Below, in pieces: positions 38,217-44,645 of a stretch of DNA of 64,000 nt (its first letter is position 1; each line of letters begins with the position of its first letter). The position numbers were made by a program, and so were the translations under genes. This stretch comes from Nitrososphaerota archaeon (GTDB lineage Archaea > Thermoproteota > Nitrososphaeria > Conexivisphaerales > DTJL01), in contig JAJPJS010000025.1 in the NCBI GenBank assembly GCA_021324115.1, forward strand, positions 264,343 through 328,342. Reading direction: 5' to 3'. The notes under the pieces were generated by a model. The model was not told where the DNA came from, searched no databases, and was given only the letters and a program-made list of their open reading frames with translations.

Positions 38217-39743
38217 CTAGCGCAAGCTCTTACTCGATCTATTGCGTCTGTTCCTTAAAATCAAAAAGACCGACACGACTACCGCAAGCGCAAACGCACT
38301 TGATAGCACGTATATTGATTCCAAGCCGGGGCCTGAAGGGGGTATGTTCTGCTGGGTGGACGAGTTGCCAGAATTATTCTGAATTGGAACAGGAATATTC
38401 ACAGGCACGCTCACAGGATAGCTGACAACGGTTACTGTACCGAATATTGTTTTGTTGTAGCTTGCTTGGAATATAATTTCATAAGTGTACCTCCCTGGCG
38501 GAATCAGAAAGGTAACCGATTGTCCATGGATCGAAGTCTGTGTGATATTTGAAAATGTGACATTCCAATCAAGCGATAAGGCCAGACCTGACGGGATGAA
38601 GGTAACAGCATACAGCTGCTGCTCGTAAAGTTCCCACATCCCACTTGAGACGCCTCCGGAACTGCATCCGGTCCCATTCTGCTCTGTCGCCGAGCCACCG
38701 AACATGAATACGTTTCCTTCAAGAGGGTTAAATGCAGCCGCTGAACCGTAGAGCGGAGGCGGAGGTGTAAACGAAGCCTGCTTAACCCATTCACCATTCT
38801 GGTAAAGCCATGTATCCTGCAAGGCACATCCGGAGGCATTCCGGCCGCCAAAAAGTACCGCTGCTGACGTATTCTTATCATATGTAAATGCCGGAAAAGC
38901 CCTTCCTGTGGGTTCGCTTGCCTGGTTCGATTGATTCACTCGACTCCAAGAACCCCCCGCAAAAATCCATGTGTCAGATAGTACATCTGTTGAGTTCAAT
39001 TGACCACCAAATAGAACGAGTTCCTTCAAAGAAGGGTCGAAGGTAAACCCGGCTCCATACCTGGGGGTTGGTCCTTGACTAGTCGTCAGCTTTACCCAGG
39101 ATTCACCATTAAAAATCCAGGTGTCGCCAAGAGCCCCATTATTTGAAAGGCCTCCAAATAACACGAATTCATTTGACGTCGGATCATATGCAAAGCTTGC
39201 GAAAGATCTGGGAGACGGCGACACAGGTGTGGAGATGGGGGACCAGTCTCCACCGGAGAAGCGCCAAGTATCATTAAGAAAGGAGGGGAAGGAACCGGAG
39301 GATAGACCACCAAATAGCACACCATACCCACCCTTCAGGCTGTAGCCGAATGCGGCACCTGCCCGTGCTGAAGGGGATATTGCAGCGGTCATGTTTCTCC
39401 AGCCCCCATTAACCCAGGCCCAGGTATCCGAAAACGTAACTCCGGCCGAATTCATTCCTCCAAAAAGAACCGTGTAGCCGTCTGCCTTGTCGTATGTCAT
39501 GCTTGAGTAAACCCGGCCAGCGGGGGCCTGGTTCGTTGCTCCTGAAATGGGTAGCCACGCTGCATCCATCGGGGCTCCGACGTAGGAAGGAGATGACGAG
39601 CTGGAGCTCGCAAGTGCGCCAGCATCTGCGTTCGCAGGGCTTAAAGCTAAGGTAAGGTATGGCAGTAGAAGAATAAATAAAATCAGAATAATCGGTTTTC
39701 CTTTCGCCAGGGGATGGCGGGAGGCTGCTTTTCCGGGCAACAA
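38217..39743 (-). CDS. Secreted kelch-repeat protein with C-terminal anchor
   Basis: A 508-residue exported protein. A signal/anchor (residues about 18-40) is followed by six kelch-type repeats, each with an LFGG strand and a DTW turn (for example VLFGGMNSAG...SDTWAW, VLFGGLSNN...GDTWIF), forming a beta propeller at about 60-370. A beta domain, an Asn/Gln-rich linker and a C-terminal membrane helix with RNRRNR complete it. It starts with TTG 5 bp after the stop of the MosA-like gene, so it may be the last gene of the molybdenum operon. Its function there is unknown. Confidence 0.78.
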   Translation of the reverse strand: MLPGKAASRHPLAKGKPIILILFILLLPYLTLALSPANADAGALASSSSSSPSYVGAPMDAAWLPISGATNQAPAGRVYSSMTYDKADGYTVLFGGMNSAGVTFSDTWAWVNGGWRNMTAAISPSARAGAAFGYSLKGGYGVLFGGLSSGSFPSFLNDTWRFSGGDWSPISTPVSPSPRSFASFAYDPTSNEFVLFGGLSNNGALGDTWIFNGESWVKLTTSQGPTPRYGAGFTFDPSLKELVLFGGQLNSTDVLSDTWIFAGGSWSRVNQSNQASEPTGRAFPAFTYDKNTSAAVLFGGRNASGCALQDTWLYQNGEWVKQASFTPPPPLYGSAAAFNPLEGNVFMFGGSATEQNGTGCSSGGVSSGMWELYEQQLYAVTFIPSGLALSLDWNVTFSNITQTSIHGQSVTFLIPPGRYTYEIIFQASYNKTIFGTVTVVSYPVSVPVNIPVPIQNNSGNSSTQQNIPPSGPGLESIYVLSSAFALAVVVSVFLILRNRRNRSSKSLR

Positions 39744-39748
39744 GCGTC

Positions 39749-40555
39749 TTACGCCCTGCTTATGACAGTTCCATTCACATCTTCCGTAAGAGATGAAATT
39801 ACACGTCCCTTCTTTAAGCCATTTACTACAACGATGTCGGCGGGATTTCTGGCTCTTTTCATAAGCTCAAAGACCTCTTTGTCTATGCATGAATTCCGCA
39901 ATTCAAGCAAATCATCAGGCGTACCCCTTTTAATCAGATTGGCATTTTTGTTTAACTTTGGATCGTCGTCATAGATCCCATCAACATCCCTCACATACAC
40001 AATCCTTTTCATGCCGCAGGTAGAGGCAAACAGATACACACCTGCATCTGCGCCCGTAGGGGGATCCCTTCCAAGAGTAGGGGGATGCTCCCATATGTCG
40101 TAAGGAGGCACACCGTTGAAAACCACGGCCCTCGACATCTCCAGCATGGCAGGGAGCATGTGAACCATCTCAGCATGAGTTAGCTCGGGTATCCCTACCG
40201 GGGACAACAGCGCACCTATTATATGCGCGTTGAGTTCTGAATCGAGTCGCCTTAGCTCCGCCACGAGCCCAACCGGTAAGCCCAGGTCGATGGCGACGGA
40301 CATCACATGCCTCGCTCTCTTCCCTGAACCCGTAGCGATGATCATCTTGTTCCTTTTTACGCATCTCTTAATTTCTTCAAGCAGGGGTATGATTGCTTCG
40401 GCGCCCGAATCAATTACTTTCCCACCGATTTGCAGTGCCACTACATCGGGCATTAGAGGGAAGACTTCCACCTGTGACCTCCTCTTCGTATGCTCACTGA
40501 GCAATGTCTCCTTCATGAAGCTCGAAGATACATGCCTGAACGCACCCGTTCTCAT
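39749..40555 (-). CDS. Molybdenum storage protein alpha subunit (MosA-like)
   Basis: A 268-residue protein of the amino-acid kinase fold. The segments ALQIGGKVIDSGAEAIIPLLEEI, SGKRARHVMSVAIDLGLPVG, ELNAHIIGALL, ADAGVYLFAS and VRDVDGIYDDDPK follow the order and spacing of Azotobacter MosA, including IGG-x-V-x-D without the Ser seen in MosB. MosA and MosB form a heterohexamer that packs molybdate (or tungstate) as polyoxo clusters using ATP. The PPY-x3-E segment is PPYDIWE here, without the His-rich version I recall from Azotobacter. I start at ATG 40555 behind AAGGATGA. UMP kinase is the main alternative, but the pairing and neighbours argue against it. Confidence 0.78.
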   Translation of the reverse strand: MRTGAFRHVSSSFMKETLLSEHTKRRSQVEVFPLMPDVVALQIGGKVIDSGAEAIIPLLEEIKRCVKRNKMIIATGSGKRARHVMSVAIDLGLPVGLVAELRRLDSELNAHIIGALLSPVGIPELTHAEMVHMLPAMLEMSRAVVFNGVPPYDIWEHPPTLGRDPPTGADAGVYLFASTCGMKRIVYVRDVDGIYDDDPKLNKNANLIKRGTPDDLLELRNSCIDKEVFELMKRARNPADIVVVNGLKKGRVISSLTEDVNGTVISRA

Positions 40556-40568
40556 GAAATCGTCATCC

Positions 40569-41354
40569 TTACGCTTCGATAATCGATCCAACGGAATCAC
40601 CGTTCAATGCGGCAGATAGTTCGCCTTCGTGCAGGCCGTTAATCACCTGTACTCGTCTGATATTTTTTGCACGTCCCAGAAACTCAACGACGGGCGGCTC
40701 GATGACGAGATCTGGCAGATTCATTTTTTTGAGTTCGTTCACATTGATCCTTTTTATGAACTGTGCTTTGGGTTTGATTTTCGGATTGTCTGAGTAAAGG
40801 CCATCTTCATCCTTAACATATATCATGCCCGCAACCCCGAAGGTTTCAGCAACAAGGAAGCATCCCGTATCTGTTCTGTGGGGTGGTATTAGCCCTATAT
40901 CCGGAAATCTTTCCCAGAAGGTGTAGGGGGGCATGCCGGGGAACACCACCGCTCCCCTCTCTGCAAGGTCGAATGGAAGTTTGCTGCTGAGTTCACCAGG
41001 TGAAAGAACCGGTATGCCTCTGTCTGCAAGCAGCCATCCCAGTATTCTAGCGTTCTGAGTAGCAACCCCCGCCCCCAAGGCTGATAGCACACCAGTTGGT
41101 AGCCCAAGCTCTACTGCAAGACTGTAAGCGTGTCTAGCTCTTGTGCCTGCGCCCGTACCTATTATCAGCTTTTTCCCTCTGTCCAAATTTCTCTTTATTT
41201 CGGCGACCAGCGGCATCACAGCCTTGCTTCCCCTGTCGATTATACTCTGACCACCGACCTTGATCACCCACGCGTCGGGGAGAAGCTTGAAGGTAGGGCT
41301 TTCATTGTCATGTTGCCGCACGTTGATCTGGTTCAATCTGGCAGGCTTGACCAA
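40569..41354 (-). CDS. Molybdenum storage protein beta subunit (MosB-like)
   Basis: A 261-residue amino-acid kinase-fold protein strongly like MosB: LLPDAWVIKVGGQSIIDRG, KLIIGTGAGTRARHAYS, LGLPTGVLSALGAGVATQNA, VVFPGMPPYTFWE, GLIPPHRTDTGCFLVAE, YVKDEDGLYSDNPK and VQVINGLHEGELSAAL. It lies directly behind the modC gene and 13 bp ahead of mosA. The frame opens with TTG at 41354; TTG 41336 and GTG 41321 are alternatives, because a TATA-like CATAATATAC near 41364-41373 would start RNA near 41343. It likely forms the storage cage with the MosA-like protein in the cytoplasm. Confidence 0.85.
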   Translation of the reverse strand: MVKPARLNQINVRQHDNESPTFKLLPDAWVIKVGGQSIIDRGSKAVMPLVAEIKRNLDRGKKLIIGTGAGTRARHAYSLAVELGLPTGVLSALGAGVATQNARILGWLLADRGIPVLSPGELSSKLPFDLAERGAVVFPGMPPYTFWERFPDIGLIPPHRTDTGCFLVAETFGVAGMIYVKDEDGLYSDNPKIKPKAQFIKRINVNELKKMNLPDLVIEPPVVEFLGRAKNIRRVQVINGLHEGELSAALNGDSVGSIIEA

Positions 41355-41383
41355 CCATAAAGTGGTATATTATGCCTTGCTGT

Positions 41384-41989
41384 TCAGAATTTCCTGTAGC
41401 ACTTCCCGCTCTCCAAGACATATTCATGGTCAGCCCATTGGGCATCTTCTTCATTAGGTGTGGCGTATATTACATCCATATTCGAAGAGGCTGCCAGTTC
41501 CTTGAAGGCTTGTATGAATGTGACCTTGCTGTCAATACTTGAAAAAACTTCATCGACGCATATCAGGCTTGGGGCGCTAAGCAGTGCTGATGCTAGGGAT
41601 ACCTTTTCTCTCATTCCGAGACTTAACGAATCCATCCTTCCATCGTAATCTATTCCTAACTTTTGCCGAATTTCGGAAATTTTATTCTCATCGAAGGTTA
41701 GACGCCTGGCTCTCGCTCCCCATATAAGGTGCTTTTTTACACTCAATTGAGGGATGTAGGATTCTGGGGTCACCAACACCACATTACGACGTTCTATGGG
41801 AACCCCTGTTAAATCCTCATTCCCCACTCTCACGTAACCTTTGTCAGGCTTTAAAACACCGGAAACGATCGACAGAAGAGTGCTCTTTCCTGAGCCGTTC
41901 TTTCCCCACACGCAAATGAAACCTTCATCACGGAGCACCACTTCGAGGACGAACTGATTCAGCCGCTTCTTTATGTTCAGGTCGATCAA
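41384..41989 (-). CDS. Molybdate/tungstate ABC transporter ATPase (ModC/WtpC-like), short
   Basis: A 201-residue ABC ATPase with Walker A (GKNGSGKST) and Walker B (LICVDEVFSS). The signature is LSLGMREKV, not LSGGQ. The switch (H-loop) histidine is missing: the position normally reading THD is ATPNEED. The C-terminal TOBE regulatory domain of classical ModC is also absent, which explains the short length. TTG start at 41989, 17 bp behind the permease gene. Function is assigned from its place between modB and mosB. Confidence 0.82.
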   Translation of the reverse strand: MIDLNIKKRLNQFVLEVVLRDEGFICVWGKNGSGKSTLLSIVSGVLKPDKGYVRVGNEDLTGVPIERRNVVLVTPESYIPQLSVKKHLIWGARARRLTFDENKISEIRQKLGIDYDGRMDSLSLGMREKVSLASALLSAPSLICVDEVFSSIDSKVTFIQAFKELAASSNMDVIYATPNEEDAQWADHEYVLESGKCYRKF

Positions 41990-42006
41990 ACCGTAGCCGC
42001 TTTAGC

Positions 42007-42792
42007 TCAGAATGTCCCGGTTTTTATTCTGCCTACCAGTCTGACGCCGATCATGAGTGGAATAGAAACGAGTATCAGAACGGCTGAGGAGGATACGGCT
42101 GCGGGAAGGCCATAATAGCTGTAGTACTGGAATATAAGAACTGAAGCGGGGCTTGTCCCACTTAATGAAAATGGGGCCTGGAGAAGCAGATAGGCGACAA
42201 TAGCAATCGAACCGAATTCACTCATGGCACGGCTCATCGCGATAAGTGCTCCATTCAGCAGACCTTTGATCGAATTTGGCAGTACAACAAACAGGAAGGT
42301 TCTCATGCGGGAAGCTCCAAGTCCGAGAGCGTAGTATTCCTTTGCTGGGCTCATCGATTGGAAGAATCCCTGCATCGATTTTATATAGAATGGGGCAGAG
42401 ACGATCACAAGCGCTGCAACCAGTCCGGTGAGCGTGTCGAAGAAATTTATGCCGATGGAAAGCAGAAATTTTCCGGTTGGAGTCAGCGGGCTGTCCAGTA
42501 CAAGCAAGGCAACTCCGACAATGGGATGAGGAATGACTGCGGGGATGTCTGCAAGAGTCTCGGCCACCGGGTTGGCATTGCGTGAGAGAAAATAAGAAAG
42601 CGGTGTAAACAGCACCACTTCAAAAACGACCGCCAAGGCCGACGCGAAAATGGTAAGCATAATTGATTTCTGTACCTGTGTACCGTAACCGATAGGCGTG
42701 TTGAAAGGACCTAGCCCCCAGTAAAGTAAGACCGCAACCGGCAGGATGAGTAGTAAAAGGGATATGTACGAGATAATTCTGAGCGGATTCAT
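42007..42792 (-). CDS. Molybdate/tungstate ABC transporter permease (ModB/WtpB-like)
   Basis: A 261-residue permease with six membrane segments and the cytoplasmic EAA loop EYYALGLGASRMRTFLFVVLPNSIKGLL, which contacts the ATPase. The sequence fits the ModB/WtpB/CysT branch. It overlaps the binding-protein gene by 4 bases (ATGA), showing translational coupling. Confidence 0.88.
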   Translation of the reverse strand: MNPLRIISYISLLLLILPVAVLLYWGLGPFNTPIGYGTQVQKSIMLTIFASALAVVFEVVLFTPLSYFLSRNANPVAETLADIPAVIPHPIVGVALLVLDSPLTPTGKFLLSIGINFFDTLTGLVAALVIVSAPFYIKSMQGFFQSMSPAKEYYALGLGASRMRTFLFVVLPNSIKGLLNGALIAMSRAMSEFGSIAIVAYLLLQAPFSLSGTSPASVLIFQYYSYYGLPAAVSSSAVLILVSIPLMIGVRLVGRIKTGTF

Positions 42793-43811
42793 AAAGTGCC
42801 TCCGTTCACCAAGAACCCGCCTTGTAGAAGCCGAGTCAGTTGCTGAGGAACGGAAGAGTCGTTATAGAGAACAGAGGGAGAAAGCGGTTCAAGCCCAAAC
42901 TTTGAAAGTGTCGTGGCATGCTTCACCACCCATACTACAAAAGCGTAGGAGGTCGCAGGGTCGGTGCTATCCTTCGGGACGGTAATGTAAAGTATTATGG
43001 GTGATCCTGCCTGCACTCCTGAAGAAGTGTCATATGTCAAACTCGAATAAAACGAAGCCAAGGCAGGATCTCCCTGGTTAATATATGGTGGCAGAGCCAT
43101 CATCTGGAGGCTGTGTGAAATGACAGCTGATTTGTACACAAAAAGAAACTGAATCTGACCCGCCTCCAGAGGTGCGAACAACTCTGCAGCACTGGGTGCC
43201 GTTACGTTTCCATGATCATTCAGCAACCTCTCAACAAAATAACTCTGGTTGTCGTTTGCGTAAAGTCTGCCGGCTGCCTCGAGCGCTAGCCACGCACGTA
43301 GTCCTGCAGGATCGCTATTGGGGTCAGAGATACCAACCTTATAGCTACCAGAGGTAAGGGCCTGGAAAAAGTTATACCAAGAAGTGTTAGACTGGGTGCT
43401 CACCGCAGCCTGGTACAGACTCATTATGCCTTCGGGCGGCGATCCAGAATATGCCAAAACAAGCTGGTCTGTTGCGAATCCGATCGCCCAGCCGGATGAT
43501 TCATTCCCAAGGTATGAAGACGTAACTGCAGATTTTGCCACAGAAATAAAGACGCTTGAAGGCTCTCCCTCAGCTATCTGTCTTGCCAGGGCAAAAGAGC
43601 CGCCGCTCTTCGGCGGCGCATAGGATATGCCTGACGAGTTGGCAAAGCCACCGTACAGGTATTGGGATTCAGCAACATAAGCATCTGCGGTGTAAACAAT
43701 AAGAGGGGAATTAGATTTACCATGTTGTCCAGTGTAAAGCAGATACCCTGCTGCAGCCACTACCACTATGATGATCAGAAGAATCGCAACAGTTGGCCTG
43801 GACACTCCCAT
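42789..43811 (-). CDS. Molybdate/tungstate-binding lipoprotein-like protein (ModA/WtpA-like)
   Basis: A protein of about 340 residues. An N-terminal membrane anchor (AILLIIIVVVAAAGYLLY) is followed by a type II periplasmic-binding fold: LIVYTADAYV, KSGGSFALARQI, FATDQLVLAYS, VGISDPNSDPAGLRAWLAL (the oxyanion-binding DPNxDPxG loop of WtpA/ModA) and FLFVYKSAV. It captures molybdate or tungstate outside the membrane; which one cannot be read. I start at ATG 43811 rather than TTG 43826. A TATA box and a ModE-like operator lie immediately upstream. Confidence 0.87.
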   Translation of the reverse strand: MGVSRPTVAILLIIIVVVAAAGYLLYTGQHGKSNSPLIVYTADAYVAESQYLYGGFANSSGISYAPPKSGGSFALARQIAEGEPSSVFISVAKSAVTSSYLGNESSGWAIGFATDQLVLAYSGSPPEGIMSLYQAAVSTQSNTSWYNFFQALTSGSYKVGISDPNSDPAGLRAWLALEAAGRLYANDNQSYFVERLLNDHGNVTAPSAAELFAPLEAGQIQFLFVYKSAVISHSLQMMALPPYINQGDPALASFYSSLTYDTSSGVQAGSPIILYITVPKDSTDPATSYAFVVWVVKHATTLSKFGLEPLSPSVLYNDSSVPQQLTRLLQGGFLVNGGTL

Positions 43812-43832
43812 CTTTCTAGCTGACAAGGTAGA

Positions 43833-43858
43833 CCGTTATGCAATGCACTGCATAACGG
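43833..43858. promoter_or_regulatory. ModE-type operator (perfect inverted repeat)
   Basis: CCGTTATGCA (43833-43842) and its exact reverse complement TGCATAACGG (43849-43858) flank a 6-base spacer. The outer CGTTAT/ATAACG ends match the ends of the bacterial ModE box. The element lies just downstream of the modA TATA box and covers the predicted transcription start, ideal for repression by the ModE-like protein encoded nearby. Confidence 0.8.
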
Positions 43859-43872
43859 CGTATTTAAACTTG
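43859..43872 (-). promoter_or_regulatory. BRE/TATA element of the molybdenum operon
   Basis: On this strand AAGTTTAAATACGC reads as BRE plus TATA box. Transcription would begin near 43840, inside the inverted repeat. Confidence 0.6.
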
Positions 43873-43963
43873 AATGGTAGGAGAGTCTTCGGCACGTGAA
43901 TAAACCTGCTGTATCAGTTTAGGCGTCACGAATGGAACAATCCTCGGCCAACGTTGAACGACA

Positions 43964-43972
43964 TGATAATAT
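43964..43972 (+). promoter_or_regulatory. Possible TATA box of the modE-like gene
   Basis: TGATAATAT lies about 45-50 bp before the ATG at 44016. No second copy of the operator is seen here. Confidence 0.35.
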
Positions 43973-44015
43973 GCCAAAGGTAAAGGTTAATTCGCTGTTC
44001 ATTTCTGTTTAACGT

Positions 44016-44645
44016 ATGGTTCGTAAGCGAGGCGTGGCACAGGACATGAAGGGAGGGCATGGGGCATTGTTGAAGAAAGATGATGTTAGGAAAGGGCAGG
44101 ATATCGAACCTACCTTTTCGCTCATGCTTCGAGAACCACATGGTACGGTTATCGATCATGTTGATGCGTTGCTGCTGAACGGCCTCGCTGAAAAGAAGTC
44201 GATCATGGAGGCTGCGAAGTATTGCAATATTTCTTACAGGAATGCCTGGGAAAGATTAAGGCGAATACAAAGAAACAGTGGCCACAAGGTGGTGGAGGCT
44301 AGACCGGGAGGCAAGACAGGGGGAAGCGCGTCCCTCACACAGGAAGGGATGAATCTGCTTAGGGAATATAAAAAGATAAACGACTATTTGTACAACGCGC
44401 TCGGAGAAAAGGATTACTGGCAACATGCAAGCTACCGCCTCAGCGCAAGGAATAGGCTGAAGGCGCATGTTATCGAGATTGAGCGGGGCTCTGTAATTTC
44501 TGAGATAAAGATGAAGTTGGATTCAACTAGTGTCCTGACTTCTTTGATTTCTAACGAAGCCGTGGATGATTTGAACCTCATGGTTGGTGATGCGGTCGAT
44601 GCCATCGTAAAGGCCACGGAAGTAATAGTGGCGAAGAGGACATAG
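44016..44645 (+). CDS. ModE-like molybdate-responsive regulator
   Basis: A 209-residue protein. The ModE winged helix covers about residues 45-135: EAAKYCNISYRNAWERLRRIQ is the recognition helix-turn-helix and RPGGKTGGSASLTQEGMNLL the wing. A single molbindin (TOBE/Mop) domain occupies about 140-208, starting ARNRLKAHVIEIERGSVISEI. Bacterial ModE carries two such domains; one per chain would make the oxyanion site between dimer partners. It is divergent from the transporter/storage operon and next to a palindromic operator, so it most likely represses modABC-mosBA when molybdate is plentiful. The first 40 residues are lysine-rich and not family-like, so translation may begin later. Confidence 0.87.
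   Translation: MVRKRGVAQDMKGGHGALLKKDDVRKGQDIEPTFSLMLREPHGTVIDHVDALLLNGLAEKKSIMEAAKYCNISYRNAWERLRRIQRNSGHKVVEARPGGKTGGSASLTQEGMNLLREYKKINDYLYNALGEKDYWQHASYRLSARNRLKAHVIEIERGSVISEIKMKLDSTSVLTSLISNEAVDDLNLMVGDAVDAIVKATEVIVAKRT

Follow-up and report, generated by a model that had tools for sequence, protein, structure and literature searches.

What do two adjacent genes for amino-acid-kinase-fold proteins do behind a molybdate/tungstate-type importer in an archaeon? The question is raised by the locus at positions 38217–44645 of the window, a 64,000-nt stretch of a Nitrososphaerota archaeon (GCA_021324115.1, contig JAJPJS010000025.1) whose genome of 2.14 Mb is given as 95% complete. The gene at 40569–41354 was an ortholog of mosB and that at 39749–40555 a diverged ortholog of mosA, the genes for the two subunits of the molybdenum storage protein (MoSto) of Azotobacter vinelandii; they were not uridine monophosphate (UMP) kinase genes. 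With moderate confidence we favour a molybdenum scavenging-and-hoarding operon, in which an importer and an ATP-driven MosAB-like complex, with a storage chemistry other than that of MoSto, would be controlled by ModE.

An initial annotation, made from the sequence without database searches, had named the parts of this locus, and the open reading frames (ORFs) were found where it had placed them. The features were as follows.

39749–40555, minus strand: mosA-like gene (268 aa) for a protein with an amino-acid-kinase fold and an N-terminal arm of MosA type, HVSSSFMKETLL; both the canonical ligands of the clusters and the KxGG lysine replaced.
40569–41354, minus strand: mosB ortholog, 261 aa, catalytic core intact (KVGGQS, TGAGTRARH, GMPPY, KDEDG).
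41384–41989, minus strand: wtpC/modC-like ABC ATPase gene, 201 aa, no TOBE domain found.
42007–42792, minus strand: wtpB/modB-like permease gene, its product the single WtpB-like match in the genome at E ≤ 1e-6.
42789–43826, minus strand: gene for a wtpA-like oxyanion-binding protein (SBP_bac_11), possible alternative start at 43811.
43833–43858, no strand: palindrome CCGTTATGCAATG/CACTGCATAACGG, candidate ModE operator between modE and wtpA.
43861–43868, minus strand: possible archaeal TATA box TTTAAATA, picked by eye, just upstream of the palindrome and reading towards wtpA.
44016–44645, plus strand: modE-type regulator gene, helix-turn-helix (HTH) and one Mop/TOBE domain, divergent.

The minus-strand genes thus ran in the order wtpA, wtpB, wtpC, mosB and mosA; wtpA and wtpB overlapped by 4 bases, and the following gaps were 17 (wtpB–wtpC), 29 (wtpC–mosB) and 13 bases (mosB–mosA).

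Relatives were collected by scanning genomes with two MosB peptide patterns, a procedure that misses variants and weaker relatives. The best 80 of 233 relatives, together with two Azospirillum plasmids (L011 and L012) and the window, made up 83 loci. The Azospirillum pairs served as named references (L011 MosA 470 bits and MosB 520 bits to A. vinelandii), and both had the gene order mosB, mosA. A second amino-acid-kinase gene followed MosB in 81 of the 83 loci; L045 stopped at a contig end, and in L017 none was seen in the ORF scan, which may be a real loss or an assembly fault.

In phmmer searches of the PDB, the MosB-like protein scored 275 bits to A. vinelandii MosB; MosA followed at ~174 bits and the best UMP kinase at 32. 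The MosA-like protein scored 168.5 bits to MosB, 155 to MosA and 36 to UMP kinase. Since it scored slightly better to MosB, pairwise scores left its MosA identity open, and assignment by best pairwise match failed; for many bacterial second genes, likewise, the two seed profiles scored about equally. The proposal that each gene matches a different subunit therefore held by score for MosB, and for MosA by tree, gene order, N-terminal arm and predicted fold.

The loci for the trees were chosen by hand, and each gene had been labelled A or B beforehand from its place in the gene order. A quick tree (92 rows: 45 of the 83 loci and two other kinases) split A from B with a starred support of 96. In a careful tree (64 proteins, 32 loci) first and second genes were separated at 100/100, the separation that the initial annotation had named as a check, and each half held one of the two window proteins. 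The window, L013 and L015 (labelled Micrarchaeota) formed one clade in each half (100/99 in B, 100/100 in A). His10 (75/81), Ser13 and Leu20 (81/81 each) of the MosA N-terminal arm, in L011 numbering, were all present in the window protein.

AlphaFold single-chain models (pLDDT 83.7 for the MosA-like and 86.5 for the MosB-like protein) were searched with Foldseek and VIA. MosA ranked first for the MosA-like model (VIA Z 34.9, rmsd 1.7, 238 aligned; UMP kinase 25.3), and MosB for the MosB-like model (Z 36.5, rmsd 2.3, 250 aligned; UMP kinase 26.7). The best MosA and MosB chains lay 1.9 Z apart for the first and 1.5 Z for the second, with ties among the lower rows; the fold therefore tells the subunits apart only to a modest degree.

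That the pair are two ordinary amino-acid kinases, UMP kinase or other, lying beside a transporter by chance is highly improbable. Both proteins matched Pfam AA_kinase, their best NCBIfam match was pyrH_arch, and most plasmid records name a relative as such: Azospirillum MosB (e.g. L011 5908–6720 and L012 5908–6720) was labelled uridine (monophosphate) kinase in 8 of 10. But the pyrH_arch scores (57.2 and 52.3 bits) lay far under the cut-off of 158, the matches to MosA and MosB were more than 100 bits better than those to UMP kinase, and the Z scores differed as given above. The genome's own UMP kinase lay elsewhere (227.4 bits to pyrH_arch), and UMP kinase, IPK, LysW-type and carbamate kinases all had their own copies over cut-off. 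Scores, tree, fold and these resident kinases ruled the candidate out; best matches to UMP kinase or another amino-acid kinase were the outcome that the initial annotation had named as refuting its view.

The two subunits differed in what they had kept. In MosB, all positions tested in KxGGQS, TGAGTRARH and KDExG were identical in 83/83 proteins, window included; Lys42 was present in 83/83 and Met149 in 82/83, and the window had both, the residue equal to Met-β149 lying in GMPPY. In MosA, residues were compared in A. vinelandii numbering, checked on the 2ogx_A alignment, between 23 canonical proteins (the clade that holds the Azospirillum references, delimited once tree and alignment were known) and 58 others; L013 and L014, two of the four archaeal rows, were identical and both counted. 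His140 and His157–158 we take to be cluster-related positions. His stood at position 140 in 23/23 canonical, 7/58 other and 0/4 archaeal proteins, and at each of positions 156, 157 and 158 in 23/23 canonical and 0, 0 and 2 of the 58 others; the full triad occurred in 23/23 canonical proteins and 0/58 others. Position 129 was Glu/Asp in 23/23 canonical MosA, Glu in 15/58 others and Thr in 4/4 archaeal proteins. Glu129 and His156 are described, in an excerpt of PMC4504029, as binding octamolybdate covalently. At positions 129, 140, 156, 157 and 158 the window MosA had Thr, Met, Asp, Ile and Trp, and the KxGG lysine was Gln in 4/4 archaeal proteins. The lack of Ser in the IGGKVIDSG-type motif, which the initial annotation took as a mark of MosA, did not serve as one: A. 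vinelandii MosA also lacks it, and the 23 canonical proteins had Ser in 15, Ala in 3 and a gap in 5.

Judging from these residues, the known cluster chemistry is unable to apply unchanged in archaeal MosAB. A canonical MoSto in this archaeon, an (αβ)3 cage of the Azotobacter kind with ~100 Mo stored as polyoxomolybdate that His and Glu bind, is accordingly unlikely, despite the two orthologous subunits, the intact MosB core and the adjoining Mo/W-type importer. Substitute ligands might be sought in His137 and His162 of the window, which lie near the lost ligands in the sequence, and His132 is common to 22/23 canonical MosA. The positions of the first two (A. vinelandii 135 and 160) were never His in the 23 canonical proteins and were His in 39/58 and 50/58 others, and these residues could be other ligands. 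However, L015 had neither, and Glu129, His140 and His156–158 were replaced as listed; the polyoxomolybdate cage suggested at first is not supported in that form, both residues described as covalent ligands being replaced.

The pair did lie directly behind a ModABC/WtpABC-like importer, as had been read from the sequence. The best NCBIfam matches were tungstate_WtpB for the permease (139 bits, cut-off 340), WtpA for the binding protein (105 bits, cut-off 355) and WtpC for the ATPase (88 bits, cut-off 440). The regulator, correctly recognised as a divergent ModE type, joined a ModE-type HTH (ModE_repress, E 6e-19, but 67.8 bits under the cut-off of 98.5) to one Mop domain (58.1 bits, over the cut-off of 55); its score to full-length PRK10676 was 68.7 bits, under the cut-off of 369. 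Compared with known WtpABC/ModABC and ModE, the domain make-up and the best matches (WtpA, WtpB, WtpC, ModE/Mop) were alike, but the archaeal proteins fell under the full-length equivalog cut-offs, the ATPase had no TOBE domain and ModE had one Mop domain.

The palindrome between modE and wtpA had 13-base arms (92%, no gap) with a perfect core in the window. It recurred at L013 5412–5435 with 1 mismatch in 18 core bases, and likewise in L014, between modE and wtpA. No other place in G000 or G434 came within 3 mismatches of the core pattern; G436, the genome of L015, had two places at 3 mismatches, on contigs other than its MosAB contig. A copy with 2 mismatches (L107, G435:C67) preceded a second modE-wtpABC in the metagenome-assembled genome (MAG) of L014. 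This second set had no mosBA up to the contig end, and is perhaps a paralog or from a second strain. The palindrome is conserved in place and is a putative ModE operator.

The six-gene block modE, wtpA, wtpB, wtpC, mosB, mosA recurred in two further archaeal MAGs, L013 and L014, where WtpA, WtpB, ModE, MosB and MosA were 53–68% identical to those of the window; MosA and MosB of L013 were identical to those of L014. ABC-2 transporter genes preceded modE in L013 as in the window, and in L014 the same held from the ABC-2 ATPase gene, at which the contig starts. Since L013 continues with an aIF2-gamma gene, its contig is archaeal. That gene, at L013 9615–12800 directly downstream of mosA, carried an intein with splicing and LAGLIDADG domains.

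The initial annotation knew of no described archaeal operon combining uptake, sensing and storage. As an archaeal uptake-sensing-MosAB operon the block stands, conserved in L013 and L014, but analogous sets exist in four actinobacterial loci (L033, L035, L037 and L080), with importer, regulator and MosBA; there the regulator was MerR-TOBE instead of ModE-type (Pfam scans covered the proteins of L035 only), and in L035 permease and ATPase formed one frame with TOBE_2, unlike the archaeal locus. Searches of PMC gave no paper on archaeal MoSto among the matches listed, in one case 40 of 706 and largely off-topic, and one for acid mine drainage, Thaumarchaeota and molybdate gave nothing on the question.

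Non-canonical MosAB pairs occurred in Acidobacteriota, Actinomycetota, Planctomycetota, Gemmatimonadota, Pseudomonadota and others, in the same gene order and without the full triad. A ModB/WtpB-like permease lay near part of these loci, with importers arranged differently. Unlike archaeal MosA, 49 of 52 'other' MosA kept Ser in GGRS and 32 kept the KxGG lysine. MoSto of A. vinelandii and diazotrophs resembles the archaeal pair in the two adjacent paralogous amino-acid-kinase-fold genes, the MosB core, the MosA arm and the folds. The archaeal pair differs in MosA (no Glu129, His140 or His156–158), in a host without a nitrogenase-type match, and in being joined to an importer operon, probably under ModE control.

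Importers near MosAB in several phyla, and a MosA that has lost both its cluster ligands and its KxGG lysine, would also suit a sensor or chaperone that passes molybdate from the importer to molybdenum cofactor synthesis or to ModE, with no bulk storage. We consider this quite unlikely: the gate Met and the MosA arm, which are said to serve pumping into the cage, were kept, and ModE already has its own Mop domain.

The nearest bacterial rows in the tree were Actinomycetes MAGs; L016 and L018 adjoined the archaeal clade at 98/89 in B and 90/82, below the star, in A. A search of 60 relatives at E ≤ 1e-10 gave no MosB, and one of 397 further genomes sampled from the phylum gave no MosA at E ≤ 1e-15. 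In the phylum to which the L015 genome belongs, 1/295 sampled genomes had MosB at E ≤ 1e-15, namely that genome itself, and the other 294 had none. These samples were not exhaustive: the archaeal loci L013 and L014 stem from a different collection. The window's genome had archaeal-type PyrH, IPK and Hsp20, all over cut-off, which marks it as archaeal. The patchy distribution and the tree suggest lateral gain, and the genes probably came from bacteria. As for a viral origin, 58 stretches of the viral_contigs set matched in a scan with the two patterns and none encoded a relative; it was rejected.

The nearest rows included two MAGs, one archaeal and one actinobacterial, that share a sample series (YP2), which we take to come from mine water. 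Together with the changed cluster ligands, this would fit a MosAB that is an ATP-dependent buffer or detoxifier of oxyanions (e.g. tungstate, vanadate or excess molybdate) and not a nutrient store. Such a role is rather unlikely, as detoxification would hardly be built as an operon with an importer behind a putative ModE operator.

The genome itself bears on the metal. Its single PF00384 protein was a NarG (L093 280–3825, 1770.7 bits, cut-off 1084). The xanthine-oxidase family was represented by five MoCoBD_1 proteins, all of which stayed under the equivalog cut-offs. A match to aldehyde ferredoxin oxidoreductase (AOR, PF01314) was not found, and a tungsten AOR was dropped as a candidate; nor was there any match to nitrogenase-type PF00148 in this genome, given as 95% complete, and a nitrogenase link was likewise discarded. 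By its gene content the host shows no sign of nitrogen fixation. With NarG, five MoCoBD_1 proteins and no AOR match, Mo is likelier than W, and molybdopterin enzymes are the likelier use. Tungsten, which the initial annotation had allowed for, is thus disfavoured by these enzymes, while importer homology leaves the metal unsettled.

These findings are consistent with the hoarding operon that we favour, and an ATP-driven oxyanion store is the likely function. ModE with molybdate on its Mop domain would bind the palindrome beside the TATA box and shut the operon off. When Mo is scarce, importer and MosAB complex would be produced together. A pumping mechanism, with ATP in MosB, the MosA arm as lid and Met-β149 as gate, was reportedly described by Bruenle et al. 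in 2019 and in related work. With its intact Lys/Gly-rich ATP site and gate Met, MosB may likewise spend ATP to load molybdate into an oligomer of MosA and MosB, probably (αβ)3, with the MosA arm as lid. Since MosA has neither the KxGG lysine nor the covalent ligands known from MoSto, its part is probably structural, and the oxyanion would be held in some form other than octamolybdate bound by His and Glu. NarG and the five xanthine-oxidase-family proteins, not nitrogenase, would be supplied from this store.

Several points weigh against this reading. With the known covalent ligands replaced in archaeal MosA (the substitutions at 129, 140 and 156–158), storage may be absent; the new His residues are missing in L015, and archaeal MosA sits on a long branch (1.2 changes per column in the careful tree). 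The roles of Met-β149, the MosA arm and His140 are those reportedly described by Bruenle et al. and in related work, and MosAB is known here from sequence and single-chain predicted folds. ModE, WtpA, WtpB and WtpC fall under full-length family cut-offs, which is why their homology leaves the metal unsettled. In L015, as in L016 and L017, binding protein and permease lay nearby in a different arrangement. In its favour, WtpB-like permeases were found in 25 of the 82 other MosAB loci (1.12 Mb), where 18 whole genomes, with 43 such permeases in 76.5 Mb (rounded sizes), would lead one to expect 0.63, a large enrichment; but the loci are related, so that these are not 25 independent events and the p-value is not literal, and matches in loci and in genomes were called by different programs. 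All 20 permeases scanned (of 26, window included) matched the ModB model and also sulfate permease models. As to the operator, a reversed-pattern control gave 1 place in G000 at ≤3 mismatches and 0 in G434 to G436. The E. coli ModE consensus, given as ATCGNTATATA-N6-TATATANCGAT in an excerpt of PMC545781, shared the N6 layout and 13/20 positions with the palindrome; random windows reach 13–14, and a score not above chance is no proof of an operator.

A search for nifD covered 50 of the 80 host genomes, chosen by hand. It was present over cut-off in 16/21 hosts with the His triad and in 2/29 others (Fisher p 5e-7, uncorrected for kinship, and many hosts are MAGs, which may lack genes). The 29 included L017 (no MosA) and six archaeal and Actinomycetes FK3/YP2 hosts, in which nifD was found in 0/6. 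Two Bradyrhizobium genomes with nifD (L032 and L050) carried the non-canonical MosAB type. We tentatively propose a second, widespread class of MosAB, in archaea and in bacteria mostly without nitrogen fixation, which would have kept the MosB ATP-driven molybdate pump and would store the oxyanion without covalent His/Glu ligands. In archaea, ModE would switch it on along with the importer, to hoard Mo for the molybdopterin enzymes. On this view canonical MoSto would have arisen late, as a specialisation tied to nitrogenase, and would have acquired the His triad in doing so. Many bacteria as well as archaea have MosAB pairs, and 27 of 29 tested non-canonical hosts had no nifD over cut-off. Such pairs open to direct test how the ATP-driven core works in the absence of the clusters known so far, and whether Mo is stored by prokaryotes outside nitrogen fixation.

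Other genes adjoined these loci. In the window, a kelch-repeat protein with, by eye, a signal-like N-terminus and a hydrophobic C-terminus was encoded at 38217–39743, on the same strand as mosA and 5 bases behind it; it had no match in L013, L014 or L015. Within 6 kb of non-canonical bacterial MosAB, neighbours were clustered by single linkage and domains were scanned in representatives only. One ORF cluster, present in 29 loci, had a representative with a methyltransferase domain, and another, present in 24 loci, was represented by a multicopper oxidase (examples L070 6630–7937 and L061 325–1740).

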